From contig NC_016751.1 in assembly GCF_000255135.1 (NCBI RefSeq), forward strand, positions 930,001 through 994,000: a stretch of 64,000 nucleotides of DNA, written 5' to 3'. The notes below the pieces were generated by a model. It did not search any database, was not told the origin of the DNA, and worked only from the letters and a program-made list of their open reading frames with translations. Positions within the stretch are counted from its first letter, which is position 1. Each line of letters starts with the position of its first letter. Of this stretch, positions 1,031 to 55,871 are shown in pieces. Position numbers and translations under genes: made by a program. This stretch comes from Marinitoga piezophila KA3. GTDB taxonomy: Bacteria; Thermotogota; Thermotogae; Petrotogales; Petrotogaceae.

Positions 1031-1044
1031 TAAGAAAAGTTAAT

Positions 1045-1156
1045 ACTCTCCGGGGCAGGGTGAAATTCCCGACCGGCGGTTAAAGCCCGCGAGTCTTCGG
1101 ACTGATCCGGTGAAATTCCGGAGCCGACAGTGAAAGTCTGGATGGGAGGAGAGAAC
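1045..1156 (+). promoter_or_regulatory. FMN riboswitch (RFN element)
   Basis: The conserved RFN core is directly readable: CTCTCCGGGGCAGGGTGAAA at the 5' side, CCGACCGGCGGT, AAAGCCCGCGAG, the hairpin with TCCGGTGAAATTCCGGA, CCGACAGTGAAAGTCTGGATG and the closing GGGAGGAGAG that pairs with CTCTCC to form P1. It sits between the promoter and ribBA, with a rho-independent terminator downstream as expression platform. By family knowledge FMN binding favours termination, reducing riboflavin synthesis when flavin is plentiful. Confidence 0.95.
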
Positions 1157-1227
1157 AATATAATTTATATAGACATAAATGCATAAATTTGCGTTTGTGT
1201 TTATATATGTAATATATATTAAATCAG

Positions 1228-4554: not shown

Positions 4555-4583
4555 TTGACATTGTAAAAAAAATGTAGTATAAT
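4555..4583 (+). promoter_or_regulatory. Consensus sigma-70-type promoter for the asnA leader
   Basis: TTGACA (4555-4560), 17-nt spacer, TATAAT (4578-4583): both hexamers perfect. It lies 8 nt after the ribE stop, and no terminator is seen between, so transcription of asnA is mainly independent but could include riboflavin-operon read-through. Confidence 0.9.
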
Positions 4584-4624
4584 AAGAAAAAATTTAATAT
4601 ATATTTTTTCAGGTGGTGTTAGGT

Positions 4625-4702
4625 ATGAAGATAAGAACAATAATAATAAAAGTTAATAATTTCAATAATAATATCAACCAGCGTTGGTGGAACGCGAGGT
4701 AA
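4625..4702 (+). CDS. Asn-rich leader peptide (25 aa) of the asnA attenuator
   Basis: ATG 4625 follows AGGTGG by 8 nt; the ORF ends at TAA 4700-4702. Seven of 25 residues are Asn: residues 11, 12, 14, 15, 16, 18 and 23, with six within eight codons. The codons after the Asn cluster (for QRWW) are the RNA bases that form the left arm of an antiterminator. The gene downstream makes asparagine. This is the layout of a classical leader peptide whose translation reports charged tRNA-Asn. The peptide itself needs no function. Confidence 0.8.
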   Translation: MKIRTIIIKVNNFNNNINQRWWNAR

Positions 4703-4734
4703 GCTGTCGTTTACTATCAATTCACCGGCGCTGG
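4678..4734 (+). promoter_or_regulatory. Antiterminator stem of the asnA leader
   Basis: CCAGCGUUGGUG (4678-4689) can pair over 12 bp (two G-U) with CACCGGCGCUGG (4723-4734). The latter includes the whole left arm of the terminator hairpin, so the two structures are mutually exclusive. A competing small hairpin GCGTT/AACGC (4681-4685 with 4691-4695) could serve as the protector stem. Stalling at the Asn codons leaves the left arm free; a ribosome reaching the stop codon covers it and allows termination. Confidence 0.75.
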
Positions 4735-4758
4735 ATTTTACCAGCGCCGGTTTTTTAT
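4725..4758 (+). terminator. Attenuator terminator upstream of asnA
   Basis: Perfect 10-bp GC-rich stem CCGGCGCTGG/CCAGCGCCGG with a 6-nt loop and TTTTTT tail at 4751. It is the strongest hairpin of the region and sits between promoter and gene, so it must be conditionally bypassed for asnA to be expressed. Confidence 0.92.
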
Positions 4759-4824
4759 TTATCTATTTAAATTCAATGAGAGGGAGAGATTTTTATAAAA
4801 TTATATTTGAAGGGAGAGGGTATT

Positions 4825-5781
4825 ATGATGAAAGAAAGTATGGAAAGAAAGGTTGACACGGTACCATTGGTAAAGGAATATATGGAAAATCCTGTATTTA
4901 AAGACGCTACACTTATTCAAAGCGAAATTTTAAAAGGAATTAGACATGTATTGGATGAAAAAGGATTTGTGGAATTATTGCCTGTAACTGTTTCACCTAT
5001 TACTGATCCACTAAACCATCCACATTTTGAAGCTGAATTTGAATATTATGGACAAAAGTATTCAGTTACAAAATCTATGATTTTACACAAGCAGGTTGCT
5101 GTTCTTGTTCATAAAAAGATTTATATTGTTTCACCAAACGTTAGATTGGAAACAGAGGACAAAATGCATTCAGGAAGACATTTATTTGATTTTGTTCAAA
5201 TAGATATGGAAATGTTAGAATCACCAAGAGAGGTTGTATTTGATGTAATGGAAGATGCCATTATCCATACAATAAAAACAATAAAAGAAAAATATCCTGA
5301 GATTATTGAAAAGTATCATCCTTCTTTGAAAGTTCCTGAAAAACCTTTTAAATGCTATACCGTAAAGGAATTAAAGGAAAAATATGGCGAGGACTATGAG
5401 AAAAGAGCTTCTCTTGAAGCAACTGAACCATTCTGGATGATCGATATTCCACTTTTAGAAAGAGAATTCTATGATAAACAGGATCCTGAAAGACCTGATG
5501 TTTTATTGGATTTTGATTTGATTTACCCTGAAGGTTATGAAGAAGCTATATCCGGTGGGGAGAGGGAGCATGAATACGAACAGATTCTAAAAAGAATGGA
5601 GTTAAAGGGAACTCCACCAGAGGCTTTCCAGGATTATCTGGAAGTTGCAAAAGCTGGTTTGTTAAAACATTCTGCCGGATGTGGAATTGGAATAGAAAGA
5701 TTTACAAGATGGATTTTAGCGCTCGATCATGTTGAAAAAACCAGACTTTTTGCAAAAACTCCTGGAAAGCACTCTATCTAA
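4825..5781 (+). CDS. asnA: Archaeal-type asparagine synthetase A (AspRS-like fold)
   Basis: Resembles the archaeal asparagine synthetase related to the catalytic core of aspartyl-tRNA synthetase, which makes Asn from Asp, ATP and ammonia; there is no anticodon-binding domain. Class II features: VSPNVRLETE with HLFDFVQIDMEM (motif 2 region) and GCGIGIERFTRWIL (motif 3, with its Arg). Length 318 aa from ATG 4825. I prefer this start because AGGGAGAGGG lies just before it; a TTG at 4807 would put the Shine-Dalgarno inside the gene. Expression is probably controlled by the Asn-codon attenuator upstream. A free-standing AsxRS paralogue of another function is the alternative. Confidence 0.85.
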   Translation: MMKESMERKVDTVPLVKEYMENPVFKDATLIQSEILKGIRHVLDEKGFVELLPVTVSPITDPLNHPHFEAEFEYYGQKYSVTKSMILHKQVAVLVHKKIYIVSPNVRLETEDKMHSGRHLFDFVQIDMEMLESPREVVFDVMEDAIIHTIKTIKEKYPEIIEKYHPSLKVPEKPFKCYTVKELKEKYGEDYEKRASLEATEPFWMIDIPLLEREFYDKQDPERPDVLLDFDLIYPEGYEEAISGGEREHEYEQILKRMELKGTPPEAFQDYLEVAKAGLLKHSAGCGIGIERFTRWILALDHVEKTRLFAKTPGKHSI

Positions 5782-24892: not shown

Positions 24893-26116
24893 ATGAAAGA
24901 GAAAATTCTTGAACATGTAGAAAAAAATAAAGATGAAATTATTGAAACTTCAAAACGTTTTATATCTATAAATTCCGTAAATCCCCGTGCAGGTGGCCCC
25001 GGGGAAAAAGAAGTTGCTGAATGGCTTGAATCATATTTAAAAACAATGAAATTTGATGAAATAAAACGTTATGACGCACCAGATGATATTGTGGAATATG
25101 GTTTCAGACCTAATATTGTAGCTATTTATAAGGGAACTTCACCAGAAAGAACTATATGGTTTATTACACATATGGATAAAGTGCCTGAAGGGGATCTTTC
25201 ATTGTGGGATCATGATCCATTTGATCCAGTAATTAAAGATGGAAAAATATACGGAAGAGGTGCAGAAGATAACGGAAGCTCACTTGTTGCAACTCTTCAC
25301 GGTTTAAAAACATTAATGGATTTAAATATTAGACCTAAAAACAATATTGCTCTTGTTTTTGTTTCAGATGAAGAAACAGGTAGCGATTATGGTATAAAAT
25401 ATCTTGTCAAACAGGGAATTTTTGATAAAAATGACTGGTATTACGTACCCGATTCAGGTAATCCTGAAGGTTCTTTTATAGAAATTGCAGAAAAATCCAT
25501 ATTATGGTTAAAAATAGTTACAGAAGGAAAACAGGCTCATGCTTCTGCACCAACTGTTGCTAAAAACGCTCATAGAGCTGCAATATACTTTGCAAAAGAA
25601 TTAGATGAATTTTTACATGAAAAATATGTCGCAAAAGATCCTTTATTTAATATTCCGTTTTCAACATTTGAACCTACCAAAAAAGAACATAATGTGGATA
25701 ATATAAATACTATTCCAGGAACAGATATAATGTATTTTGATTGCAGAATTTTACCTCAATACGATTTAAATGAAATACTTGCAGATGTGGAAAATATAAA
25801 GAAAAAATACGAAGAAAAATTCGGTGTAAAGATTCATATTGAAACACCACAAATGGAAAAGGCTCCTGATCCAACTCCAGCGGATCATCCATCTGTATTG
25901 AAATTAAAAGAAGCTATTAAAGAATTAAGAAATATTGATGCAACAGTTGGCGGAATCGGTGGCGGAACATGTGCTGCCATTTTAAGAGAAGCAGGATTAC
26001 CTGCTCTTGTATGGGGAACCATGGATCACACTGCACATCAACCAAATGAATATATAAAGATAGAACATCTAATTGCAGATACAAAAATCTATGCATATTT
26101 AATGGCAAATTTTTAA
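24893..26116 (+). CDS. M20-family metallohydrolase
   Basis: 407 aa. ArgE/DapE-type zinc hydrolase: first metal ligand in WFITHMDKVPEGD, bridging Asp in IYGRGAEDNGSS, catalytic EE in VFVSDEETGSDYG, dimerisation lid about 190-300, and a C-terminal His in GTMDHTAHQPNEY. It acts on an N-acyl or peptide bond of a small substrate; the exact substrate is not evident. YgeY-like roles in purine catabolism are possible given the nearby hydroxylase, but the sequence looks closer to generic thermophile DapE/ArgE homologues. Followed after 16 nt by a second M20 gene. Confidence 0.85.
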   Translation: MKEKILEHVEKNKDEIIETSKRFISINSVNPRAGGPGEKEVAEWLESYLKTMKFDEIKRYDAPDDIVEYGFRPNIVAIYKGTSPERTIWFITHMDKVPEGDLSLWDHDPFDPVIKDGKIYGRGAEDNGSSLVATLHGLKTLMDLNIRPKNNIALVFVSDEETGSDYGIKYLVKQGIFDKNDWYYVPDSGNPEGSFIEIAEKSILWLKIVTEGKQAHASAPTVAKNAHRAAIYFAKELDEFLHEKYVAKDPLFNIPFSTFEPTKKEHNVDNINTIPGTDIMYFDCRILPQYDLNEILADVENIKKKYEEKFGVKIHIETPQMEKAPDPTPADHPSVLKLKEAIKELRNIDATVGGIGGGTCAAILREAGLPALVWGTMDHTAHQPNEYIKIEHLIADTKIYAYLMANF

Positions 26117-26132
26117 ACAGGAGGGAATTACA

Positions 26133-51760: not shown

Positions 51761-52021
51761 TTACCACCAGCCTCTACCAAACCCACGACCTCTGCCAAAT
51801 CCTCTTCCATATCCATAACCTGCTCCGTATGTTCCTCTACCGTAACCATATCCCCTACCGAATCCTCTTCCGTATCCTCTACCATATCCAAAGAATCCTG
51901 CAAATCCTCCAAACCAACCTCTTCTTACTGGTGTTGTATAATACCCTGGATTGCTGCATGGTCCCCTTCTTAAACCTATTGGACCTGTACCCATTGGGCC
52001 TGTACCATCAAATCCTGGCAT
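51761..52021 (-). CDS. DUF5320-type Gly/Arg-rich protein
   Basis: 86 aa. The N-terminus MPGFDGTGPMGTGPIGLRRG is the DUF5320 signature, with a single Cys in PCSNPGYY. The second half is a run of YGRG/FGRG units ending in GWW. Two ATGs overlap the preceding stop; I use the second because the family starts MPG. Translationally coupled to the gene before it. Function unknown; genes of this type travel with MinD-ferredoxin and NifX-like genes, as here. Confidence 0.82.
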   Translation of the reverse strand: MPGFDGTGPMGTGPIGLRRGPCSNPGYYTTPVRRGWFGGFAGFFGYGRGYGRGFGRGYGYGRGTYGAGYGYGRGFGRGRGFGRGWW

Positions 52022-52299
52022 CATCTTTCACCTCCCTGATTATATCTATCGAGTTCTCTTAATCTTTCTTCTACAAAATGCAACTCCTCTTCAAGATATC
52101 TTTTATAATCCAAAAGCATAGCTTTTTCTTCTTCTACTGAATATCCATAGTAATCATCATATGGTTCATCGTAATATCTTCCGTATCCACCAAAACCTCT
52201 TCCATAACCACGTCCAAATCCTGCTCCTCTACCGAATCCTCTTCCATATCCTCTACCCATGCCTCTTCCAAAACCATATCCACCATTTCCGTATCTCAT
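52021..52299 (-). CDS. Gly/Arg/Tyr-rich protein with C-terminal coiled coil
   Basis: 92 aa. First half is (Y/F)GRG repeats (residues 3-40), then an acidic DEPYDDYYG patch, then an amphipathic helix EEEKAMLLDYKRYLEEELHF continuing to residue 85, likely a coiled coil. DUF5320-related by composition. First gene of a two-gene unit driven by a perfect promoter, so probably abundant. RGG-like low complexity could mediate RNA or protein clustering (inference). Confidence 0.75.
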   Translation of the reverse strand: MRYGNGGYGFGRGMGRGYGRGFGRGAGFGRGYGRGFGGYGRYYDEPYDDYYGYSVEEEKAMLLDYKRYLEEELHFVEERLRELDRYNQGGER

Positions 52300-53899: not shown

Positions 53900-54705
53900 T
53901 AATCATTTTTTAATTTCATATAATTATTGTATAAGATTATAAATTTTTCTATAGAAATATTTTCCGGCCTTGTTTTTGGATCTATATCTGATTTTTCAAG
54001 TAATTCATCAAGCCTATCCTTTATTAATCCCTTTAAATTATTCCGTATTGTTTTTCTCCTCTGCGAAAACGCAACATGAACAAATTTGAAAAATCCTTTT
54101 TTGTTAATATCAGGAATATCTTCTTTTGGAGTTAATTTTAATACAACAGAATCAACTTTTGGATTTGGAATAAATGCATGAGGTGGAACATTTAATACTT
54201 TTTCCACCTTACAAAAAAATTGGACAAATATACTCAAAGGGCTATAATTTTTCCCGCTTTTTGCCATCATTCTTTCGCCATATTCTTTTTGAACCATTAA
54301 TAACGCTAATTGAAAATCTGGCGTCTCAAAAAAAATCTTTTCTAGTATTGGTGAGGTTATATAATACGGAATATTGGCGATATACTTTGGTTTCTGAATT
54401 TCTGATATATTCGCTTTTAAAAAATCTATAAATTGAATTTCTACATTTTGATATTCTTTAAATCGTTCTAATAATAATGGTTTAAGTCGTTCATCTATTT
54501 CAAATGCATATAGTTTTGCCCCGGTTTTAGCAATTTCCTCTGTTAGTGTGCCTGCACCAGGTCCTATTTCTATAACTGTATCCTCCTCTGTTACAGAACC
54601 TTTTTTTACTATTTTTTTAGCATATTCAGATGTAGACAAAAAATTCTGTCCAAGACTTTTTTTTAGTTGTATATTATATTTTTTTAACCAGTCTGATGTC
54701 TTCAT
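53896..54705 (-). CDS. rsmA: 16S rRNA (adenine1518/1519-N6) dimethyltransferase
   Basis: 269 aa. Motifs: LGQNFL near the start, VIEIGPGAGTLTEEIA (SAM), the catalytic NIPYYITSPIL, and HAFIPNPKVDSVVLKL; C-terminal FSQRRKTIRNNLKG. Dimethylates two adenines in helix 45 of 16S rRNA. Normal length. Confidence 0.95.
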   Translation of the reverse strand: MKTSDWLKKYNIQLKKSLGQNFLSTSEYAKKIVKKGSVTEEDTVIEIGPGAGTLTEEIAKTGAKLYAFEIDERLKPLLLERFKEYQNVEIQFIDFLKANISEIQKPKYIANIPYYITSPILEKIFFETPDFQLALLMVQKEYGERMMAKSGKNYSPLSIFVQFFCKVEKVLNVPPHAFIPNPKVDSVVLKLTPKEDIPDINKKGFFKFVHVAFSQRRKTIRNNLKGLIKDRLDELLEKSDIDPKTRPENISIEKFIILYNNYMKLKNDY

Positions 54706-54735: not shown

Positions 54736-54764
54736 TTGACAAAGTATAGTTTTTGTTGTATAAT
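54736..54764 (+). promoter_or_regulatory. Consensus promoter of an orphan transcript
   Basis: TTGACA (54736-54741), 17-nt spacer, TATAAT (54759-54764), perfect. It points away from rsmA, and no plus-strand gene lies between it and the terminator at 54856. Confidence 0.88.
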
Positions 54765-54770
54765 ATCAAA

Positions 54771-54885
54771 AAAAGAAAATAACTGCCAATAAACCCAAAT
54801 AAATGCCAATATCAAAGTTAAACAACTTGTAGTAATTCCCCCTGTTTAACTCTTTAGCAGCCCGAAAATCGGGCTGCTTTTTTTT
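54771..54885 (+). ncRNA. Candidate small regulatory RNA (about 115 nt)
   Basis: Bounded by a perfect promoter and a strong plus-strand terminator, with no ORF that has a ribosome-binding site. The 5' half is A-rich and single-stranded with GCCAATA twice. It then forms a 7-bp stem GTTAAAC/GTTTAAC (54817-54823 with 54844-54850) whose 20-nt loop ends in TTCCCCCT (54836-54843), complementary to Shine-Dalgarno sequences. The terminator hairpin follows. No known RNA family recognised. Start is predicted from the -10 position. Confidence 0.65.
54856..54885 (+). terminator. Terminator of the candidate small RNA
   Basis: AGCAGCCCGA/TCGGGCTGCT with a 3-nt loop, then an 8-T run on the plus strand. The minus strand has no T-run after the hairpin, so it is not the terminator of the convergent permease gene. 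Confidence 0.92.
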
Positions 54886-54890
54886 ATACA

Positions 54891-55871
54891 TTATATTTTC
54901 TTTAAATAATCAACAACATACATTTTCCAGATATTTTTAAATATTATCAGCAAAGGAATTGTTATTAATACACCAACCACACCGTATAATTGGGCAAAAA
55001 TTAACATTGAAGTTAATATTAAAAACCAGTTTATATTTACCTGACCTCCTGAAATTCTTGGTGCAAGCACCCACATTTCAAGTTGATTGGCAAAGGTTAT
55101 TATTATTACTCCCTTTAATAATCCCATTAAACCAAAGTTAGTAAATCCTAATAGTAATATTGGAATTGCTGTAATAAATATTCCTAAATATGGTATAAAA
55201 TCTGTAATACCTGCAAGTATTCCTAAAAATAAAGCATAAGGAAAACCAAATATCAATGCCATTATCCAGGTTATCACACCAACTGATAATGCTGTTATTA
55301 TCTGCCCTGAAACAAATTTTCTCAAATCACTATATGTTTTTATTAAAAAATCCTTTGTGCTATCTATTTCGGAATTTGGAAAAAACATATCAATAAGATT
55401 CCACATTCTTTTACTTGCTATTGCCATATATCCTGATGCCACTATTAATAATAATGCAATAGTTAGAAAATTGGATATATTAGAAGCTAAATAACTTGCA
55501 AATTGAACTATCATATTTCTTAAATAATCTCCTGCAGTATCCAATAATGTATTTACAACTTCACCAGTTGTCCCGGGAATCCCCTGGAAATCAAATTCAG
55601 CTATTGAATCAAAAACCTTTTTACTCTCTTCTATTGTAATAGGAATTACACTATAAAAAGCATATACTATTGCTCCATAAAATATCAATGAAGCTATAGG
55701 AACAGTAAGTTTTCTCGGTATTTTTATTTTTTCAAGATATGATGCAATTACATCTATTAAAATAGTAAAGAACATGGCTATTACTAAACTTCCAACTATT
55801 GTAGAGAAAATTTTTAATGATATCATAAACACTATTAAATACATCATTATAAACCAAAAGCTTTTTTTCAT
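54891..55871 (-). CDS. AI-2E (PerM/TqsA)-family transporter
   Basis: 326 aa with about eight membrane spans. Family marks: FFTILIDVIASYLEKIKIPR, IMALIFGFPYALFLGILAGITDFIPYLG (the conserved G-L--FIPY-G core), and LEMWVLAPRISGGQVNINW. Members export autoinducer-2, other small molecules or exchange Na+/H+, so the substrate is open. Starts on the last base of ruvX. Confidence 0.88.
   Translation of the reverse strand: MKKSFWFIMMYLIVFMISLKIFSTIVGSLVIAMFFTILIDVIASYLEKIKIPRKLTVPIASLIFYGAIVYAFYSVIPITIEESKKVFDSIAEFDFQGIPGTTGEVVNTLLDTAGDYLRNMIVQFASYLASNISNFLTIALLLIVASGYMAIASKRMWNLIDMFFPNSEIDSTKDFLIKTYSDLRKFVSGQIITALSVGVITWIMALIFGFPYALFLGILAGITDFIPYLGIFITAIPILLLGFTNFGLMGLLKGVIIITFANQLEMWVLAPRISGGQVNINWFLILTSMLIFAQLYGVVGVLITIPLLIIFKNIWKMYVVDYLKKI

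Follow-up and report, generated by a model that had tools for sequence, protein, structure and literature searches.

The window analysed here is a 64-kb stretch (G000:C2:930001-994000) of the 2.24-Mb source genome, G000. It contains a promoter and an intrinsic terminator on the plus strand between two minus-strand genes (Table 1). On the upstream side lies rsmA/ksgA (PF00398), which is divergent from the pair and has its ATG at 54705; on the other side is a gene for an AI-2E-family transporter (PF01594), which is convergent with the pair and has its stop at 54891. The promoter consists of a -35 box TTGACA (54736-54741), a 17-nt spacer and a -10 box TATAAT (54759-54764). The terminator stem starts 92 nt 3' of the -10 box, at 54856, and is formed by 10 base pairs, 7 of them G-C, with a 3-nt loop (54856-54878), followed by eight T residues. 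No gene-like open reading frame was found on the plus strand between the two elements. A sequence-only reading of this DNA had reported a perfect promoter, a strong plus-strand terminator at this distance and no plus-strand gene in the stretch, all of which were borne out, and the orphan promoter-terminator pair at 54736-54885 is confirmed as real. With its own promoter, its own terminator and no same-strand gene overlapping it, the locus is organized as a free-standing intergenic small RNA (sRNA) gene, as that reading had proposed, and we consider it very probable that such a gene is present. Its transcription start was placed from the position of the -10 box, giving predicted lengths of 102-115 nt across the genus.

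Table 1. Predicted features of the sRNA locus and the best predicted pairing site in the window (window coordinates).
Feature	Position	Strand	Evidence
sRNA promoter, sigma-70-type TTGACA-17-TATAAT	54736..54764	+	12/12 matches to consensus; 0.04 expected by chance per window
Predicted small RNA, about 115 nt in G000	54771..54885	+	Conserved at the same place in 7/7 Marinitoga genomes
A-rich 5' part of the sRNA, mostly unstructured	54771..54833	+	69% mean pairwise identity; 22/67 columns invariant
GUUAAAC arm of closing stem (partner 54844-54850)	54817..54823	+	G000 fold only
Conserved seed AAUUCCCCCUGUUUAAC with complementarity to G-rich Shine-Dalgarno sites	54834..54850	+	17/17 columns invariant in 6 species
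Intrinsic terminator, GCAGCC...GGCUGC stem and U tract	54856..54885	+	Sole stem predicted from the 7-species alignment
Best predicted pairing site in the window, UUAAACAGGAGGGAAUUAC, covering the Shine-Dalgarno sequence of beta-Ala-His dipeptidase (aa-his-dipept)	26113..26131	+	RNAduplex

The sRNA locus was compared among seven Marinitoga species (G000-G006) and 14 other genomes of the family. We found the gene as one copy in all seven Marinitoga genomes, each time in the order rsmA/ksgA, sRNA, AI-2E transporter; the neighbouring rsmA/ksgA protein of the source genome shows 78% identity to its Marinitoga lauensis counterpart, which places this genome in Marinitoga, phylum Thermotogota. A covariance model scored 155-191 bits on the seven Marinitoga loci versus at most 33 bits anywhere else in the family. 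Homologues were detected neither in the 14 other family genomes, by covariance model, BLAST and synteny, nor in those further genomes of the order that were searched by BLAST and seed pattern, and the region upstream of ksgA differs in these 14 genomes and in the order genomes examined. Additionally, the sRNA had no phage match and the neighbouring transporter had no relatives on viral contigs; outside the Marinitoga sRNA loci, the seed matched coding regions, a 5S rRNA terminator and viral genes. As judged from these genomes, the sRNA family appears to be restricted to the genus Marinitoga.

Two of the matches to the seed deserve a separate description. In G001 and G006, the terminator downstream of the 5S rRNA genes contains TTCCCCCTGTCTAAC, which differs from the sRNA seed by one mismatch, a likeness that is probably coincidental. 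In the source genome, G000:C2:149647-149666 is an exact 20-nt match (E 0.002) to the end of the seed and the start of the terminator. It was rejected as a second copy of the sRNA, as it lies antisense within a coding region (acyl-kinase-like by eye), and it is probably due to chance because part of it falls in the terminator stem.

Within the locus, both promoter boxes (TTGACAAA and GTATAATA) are invariant in the seven species, with 5 of the 15 spacer columns invariant, and promoter and terminator are retained throughout. The most conserved part of the transcript is the 17-nt block AAUUCCCCCUGUUUAAC, which is invariant in six of the seven species and shows a mean pairwise identity of 97% versus 69% over the preceding 67 columns, 22 of which are invariant. 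The block AATTCCCCCTGTTTAAC of the transcript is likewise invariant in six species. The exception to the invariant seed is G002, in which one C of the C5 run is missing. This is probably a homopolymer or assembly error, since the assembly matches the 'quiver' contigs of M. lauensis and since its alr and dipeptidase genes are split into frame-shifted pieces. The C-rich block is thus not lost beside conserved flanking genes, which was the refuting condition named in the sequence-only reading; across 7/7 species, no other part of the transcript is conserved as well. That a promoter and a terminator came together by chance, without function, is very improbable when the pair is kept in 7/7 species and the seed is practically unchanged in surroundings that are 69% identical; moreover, exact copies of TTGACA-17-TATAAT were found 3 times in the 64-kb window, versus 0.04 expected from shuffled sequences.

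The conservation of the locus in 7/7 Marinitoga genomes is not accompanied by a conserved reading frame. No plus-strand frame is common to the seven species, and no peptide conserved on either strand was found among them. The closest approach to a coding explanation is that the minus strand is the conserved one, either because it encodes a tiny membrane peptide, with AGGGGGAA serving as ribosome-binding site, or because it belongs to the ksgA leader. After AGGGGGAA, the minus-strand frame of G000 and G003 starts with TTG and encodes a hydrophobic 19-mer (MFNFDIGIYLGLLAVIFFF and MSLLDIGSYLLLMAVISFF). However, an in-frame stop interrupts this frame in G004, no matching frame is present in G001 or G006, and the versions in G005 and G002 have different ends; it also leaves the plus-strand promoter and U-tract terminator unexplained. 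The small peptide was rejected on these grounds, and we regard conservation of the minus strand as extremely improbable.

The predicted fold of the source-genome transcript has an energy of -24.8 kcal/mol (z = -4.66), which none of 200 shuffled sequences equalled, and the terminator contributes much of this stability. In this fold GUUAAAC/GUUUAAC closes a 20-nt loop that displays UUCCCCCU, as the sequence-only reading had proposed, but the stem is intact only in G000, where alone the full GUUAAAC arm is found; the three outer pairs of the stem are kept in only two of the seven sequences. RNAalifold predicted the terminator stem alone from the seven sequences. No compensatory changes were seen in the closing-stem pairs, the score being equal to that of shuffled controls, and the stem was rejected as a conserved structure because it shows no covariation and is mostly broken among the relatives.

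Thermophiles of the Marinitoga lineage grow at 45-65 °C. At 60 °C, the folding model gave the CCCC part of the seed an unpaired probability of 0.71-0.96 in all seven species, which supports the proposed accessible C-rich element resembling an anti-Shine-Dalgarno sequence. The GUUUAAC part, which is the would-be 3' arm of the closing stem and is included in the conserved seed AAUUCCCCCUGUUUAAC, was mostly unpaired in the model outside G000 and, in part, G004; in G000, the 3' half of the seed is additionally held in a stem. Because only the terminator stem is conserved and the seed is mostly unpaired at 60 °C, the conserved design is predicted to run from an A-rich leader through a C-rich seed that is single-stranded for the most part to the terminator, with no closing stem. 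An accessible C-rich (UCCC) element is thus under constraint, whereas the C-rich motif does not lie in a conserved stem-loop of the kind known from sX13. The earlier proposal of a regulatory RNA with a C-rich loop is supported for the sRNA gene and its accessible C-rich element but not for the stem-loop as its defining structure.

The location of the locus suggested a second possible role for transcription here, namely action in cis. The -35 box adjoins the ribosome-binding site region of ksgA, an overlapping promoter-like site (TTGGCA-18-TATTAT, TG-extended) is present on the minus strand at 54789-54760, and the place beside ksgA is fixed across the genus. Accordingly, a bidirectional promoter might be shared with ksgA, plus-strand transcription might tune ksgA or shield the convergent transporter transcript, and the RNA itself would be a by-product. 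This explanation accounts neither for the conserved terminator nor for the fact that the best-conserved part of the transcript is the seed, located 70 nt 3' of the -10 box, and we judge it to be quite unlikely.

We then consider the seed as an element that pairs with ribosome-binding sites. The seed is complementary to AACAGGGGG, CAGGGGGAA and GGGGGAAUU. Sites of the form CAGGGGG-N2-10-ATG occur 13-17 times per genome versus 0-2 per strand in the reversed control, and leaders of the GGGGGAATT type occur 8-15 times per genome. The complementarity of the seed to GGGGG is partly automatic, because GGGGG is an ordinary variant of the Shine-Dalgarno sequence. In the window, the mean pairing energy of the seed was -5.75 kcal/mol with gene leaders versus -3.71 kcal/mol with internal coding positions. 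None of 300 composition shuffles of the seed paired with the leaders as well as the seed itself, and 25 of 300 did so when the C5 block was kept, which leaves only a slight excess; the specificity signal of the seed is mostly due to the C run itself. Many genes had been said to carry GGAGG or GGGGG leaders. By a crude gene call, GGAGG leaders are indeed common (26 of 61 gene starts in the window), whereas GGGGG precedes only 4 of the 61; a C5 seed would accordingly select a subset of genes.

Among individual sites, the best in the window lies at the dipeptidase gene (assigned by TIGR01893), where 18 base pairs with one bulged A are predicted with the seed region at -20.6 kcal/mol and 55 °C, compared with -14.9 kcal/mol for the next best site. 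This pairing strength was matched by 30 of 1500 flank-shuffled seeds (2%). The site is strong in G000 and absent in the six other Marinitoga species, and the dipeptidase mRNA was rejected as a conserved target. The alr leaders contain TTAAACAGGGGG, a perfect 12-nt match to the seed, in four species and a form with one mismatch in a fifth; the match is absent in G000 and G005. The alr leaders and the G000 dipeptidase mRNA may be regarded as candidate targets from their complementarity to the seed. No target site kept in all seven Marinitoga species was found, while matches occur in several species.

Leaders matching half of the seed clustered across species for 5'-nucleotidase, TM1266-like, glycerol kinase, carbamate kinase, FBPase and solute-binding proteins. 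The clusters also include the pyridoxal-phosphate-linked genes alr, yggS, sufS, ridA, kamA and kbl, a set noticed post hoc, whose leaders have seed matches in 2-6 species each. Two of the leaders were set aside. The yggS leader GGGGGAATT, present in six species, was rejected as independent evidence as it overlaps the stop of the upstream gene; the conservation of some GGGGGAATT leaders, such as this one, may reflect coding because the end of an upstream reading frame overlaps them. The GH57 leader TTAAA(C/T)AGGGG, present in five species, was rejected as the stretch appears to continue the upstream reading frame, and its G002 form probably reflects a homopolymer error. It is conceivable that the sRNA acts globally in Marinitoga, discriminates GGGGG-type from GGAGG-type Shine-Dalgarno sites and co-regulates the pyridoxal-phosphate-linked genes, an idea to which we give little credence. 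If true, the set would be a defined regulon of a trans-acting sRNA in Thermotogota, and we know of none described before it.

These target data also bear on the possibility that the sRNA is real and that its C-rich block binds a protein or one other RNA, as a sponge or as the target of one, instead of Shine-Dalgarno regions in general. The entire 17 nt are invariant, which is beyond what a CCCC motif needs, and a fully conserved mRNA target was not found among the seven species; both points fit a single dedicated partner. On the other hand, CCCCC and its flanks match leaders over up to 12-13 nt in several species, and long C-rich anti-Shine-Dalgarno seeds are common among known sRNAs. We consider a dedicated partner of this kind unlikely. 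Pairing of the C-rich seed in trans with ribosome-binding sites is the reading we favour, with reasonable though not high confidence. In this mechanism, a Marinitoga-specific sRNA would be transcribed independently from its own promoter, and its single-stranded seed AAUUCCCCCUGUUUAAC, just upstream of the Rho-independent terminator, would pair with a subset of mRNAs at their G-rich Shine-Dalgarno regions (AACAGGGGG, GGGGGAAUU), block ribosome binding and so cause repression. Hfq, which is encoded in the source genome (PF17209, E 6.9e-26), would probably assist the pairing, with the A-rich 5' part of the sRNA as a possible contact region.

To place the sRNA among known families, we compared it with Rfam and with described C-rich sRNAs. 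No Rfam family scored above threshold, and the RsaE/RoxS family gave no match at the gathering threshold or at E up to 10. The best sub-threshold match was RF02451 ncr1241, a Bacillus sRNA (26.2 bits, E 0.023), and membership was rejected against its gathering score of 60. The likeness is weak and local (UAGUA-UUCCCCC, then a terminator), showed up in G005 alone among the 3-kb loci from across the genus (26 bits, E 1.4), and amounts to the C run and a terminator.

Like the Marinitoga sRNA, RoxS, FsrA and RsaE have a 3' intrinsic terminator. RoxS and FsrA of B. subtilis and RsaE of Staphylococcus are also similar as short independent RNAs with C-rich regions directed against G-rich ribosome-binding sites (PMC8216469, PMC6435200). 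They differ in having several C-rich regions, where the Marinitoga sRNA has a single C-rich seed beside the terminator, and in phylum and Hfq roles, with no sequence-structure match. This mode of action is established in Bacillus for RoxS/FsrA (PMC8216469), in Staphylococcus (PMC5826253, PMC3961350) and in Xanthomonas (PMC3771888). The UCCC motif occurs in 48% of bona fide S. aureus sRNAs; RsaA and others of these resemble the Marinitoga sRNA in carrying a UCCC-type seed that is unpaired and in belonging to a low-G+C genome (PMC5826253), while the Marinitoga seed is longer (17 nt invariant), shows no homology to them and has candidate targets only. In Xanthomonas, CCCC motifs of sX13 act on G-rich motifs near translation start sites, and 5% of genes there carry such motifs at their ribosome-binding site (PMC3771888). 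The Marinitoga sRNA resembles sX13 in its CCCC motif complementary to such G-rich motifs; the motifs of sX13 lie in stable loops, whereas the stem of the Marinitoga loop is unconserved. Overall, the sRNA probably belongs to a known general class of gene regulators, within which it forms a new family.

The Marinitoga sRNA bears on whether C-rich anti-Shine-Dalgarno seeds had an independent origin in yet another phylum, and it offers a concrete case for asking if seed-pairing sRNAs and Hfq are at work at 45-65 °C in the thermophiles of this lineage. Regulation by trans-acting sRNAs is nearly uncharted in Thermotogota: a survey of Thermotoga maritima listed only 12-13 putative ncRNAs, none of them with a defined structure or function (PMC3636130). 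The Marinitoga sRNA is like these in being a small non-coding RNA of the same phylum and differs from them in being found in Marinitoga only.

Other features were also noticed in the window. A perfect TTGACA-17-TATAAT is also present in 4555-4760 (+), where it is followed by a short leader reading frame encoding MKIRTIIIKVNNFNNNINQRWWNAR and ending in a stop, with seven Asn and two Trp codons, and then by a strong G+C-rich hairpin and U tract. The gene downstream (4825-5778, PF00152) encodes a short protein resembling class II (D/K/N) tRNA synthetases, and the element resembles a peptide attenuator, perhaps one that senses Asn. Another perfect copy, at 52378-52350, precedes two adjacent genes for small Gly/Arg/Tyr-rich proteins, MMPGFDGTGPMGTGP... 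and MRYGNGGYGFGRG..., at 51761-52299 (-). Finally, an FMN riboswitch (RF00050, 120 bits) was found at 1042-1157 (+).
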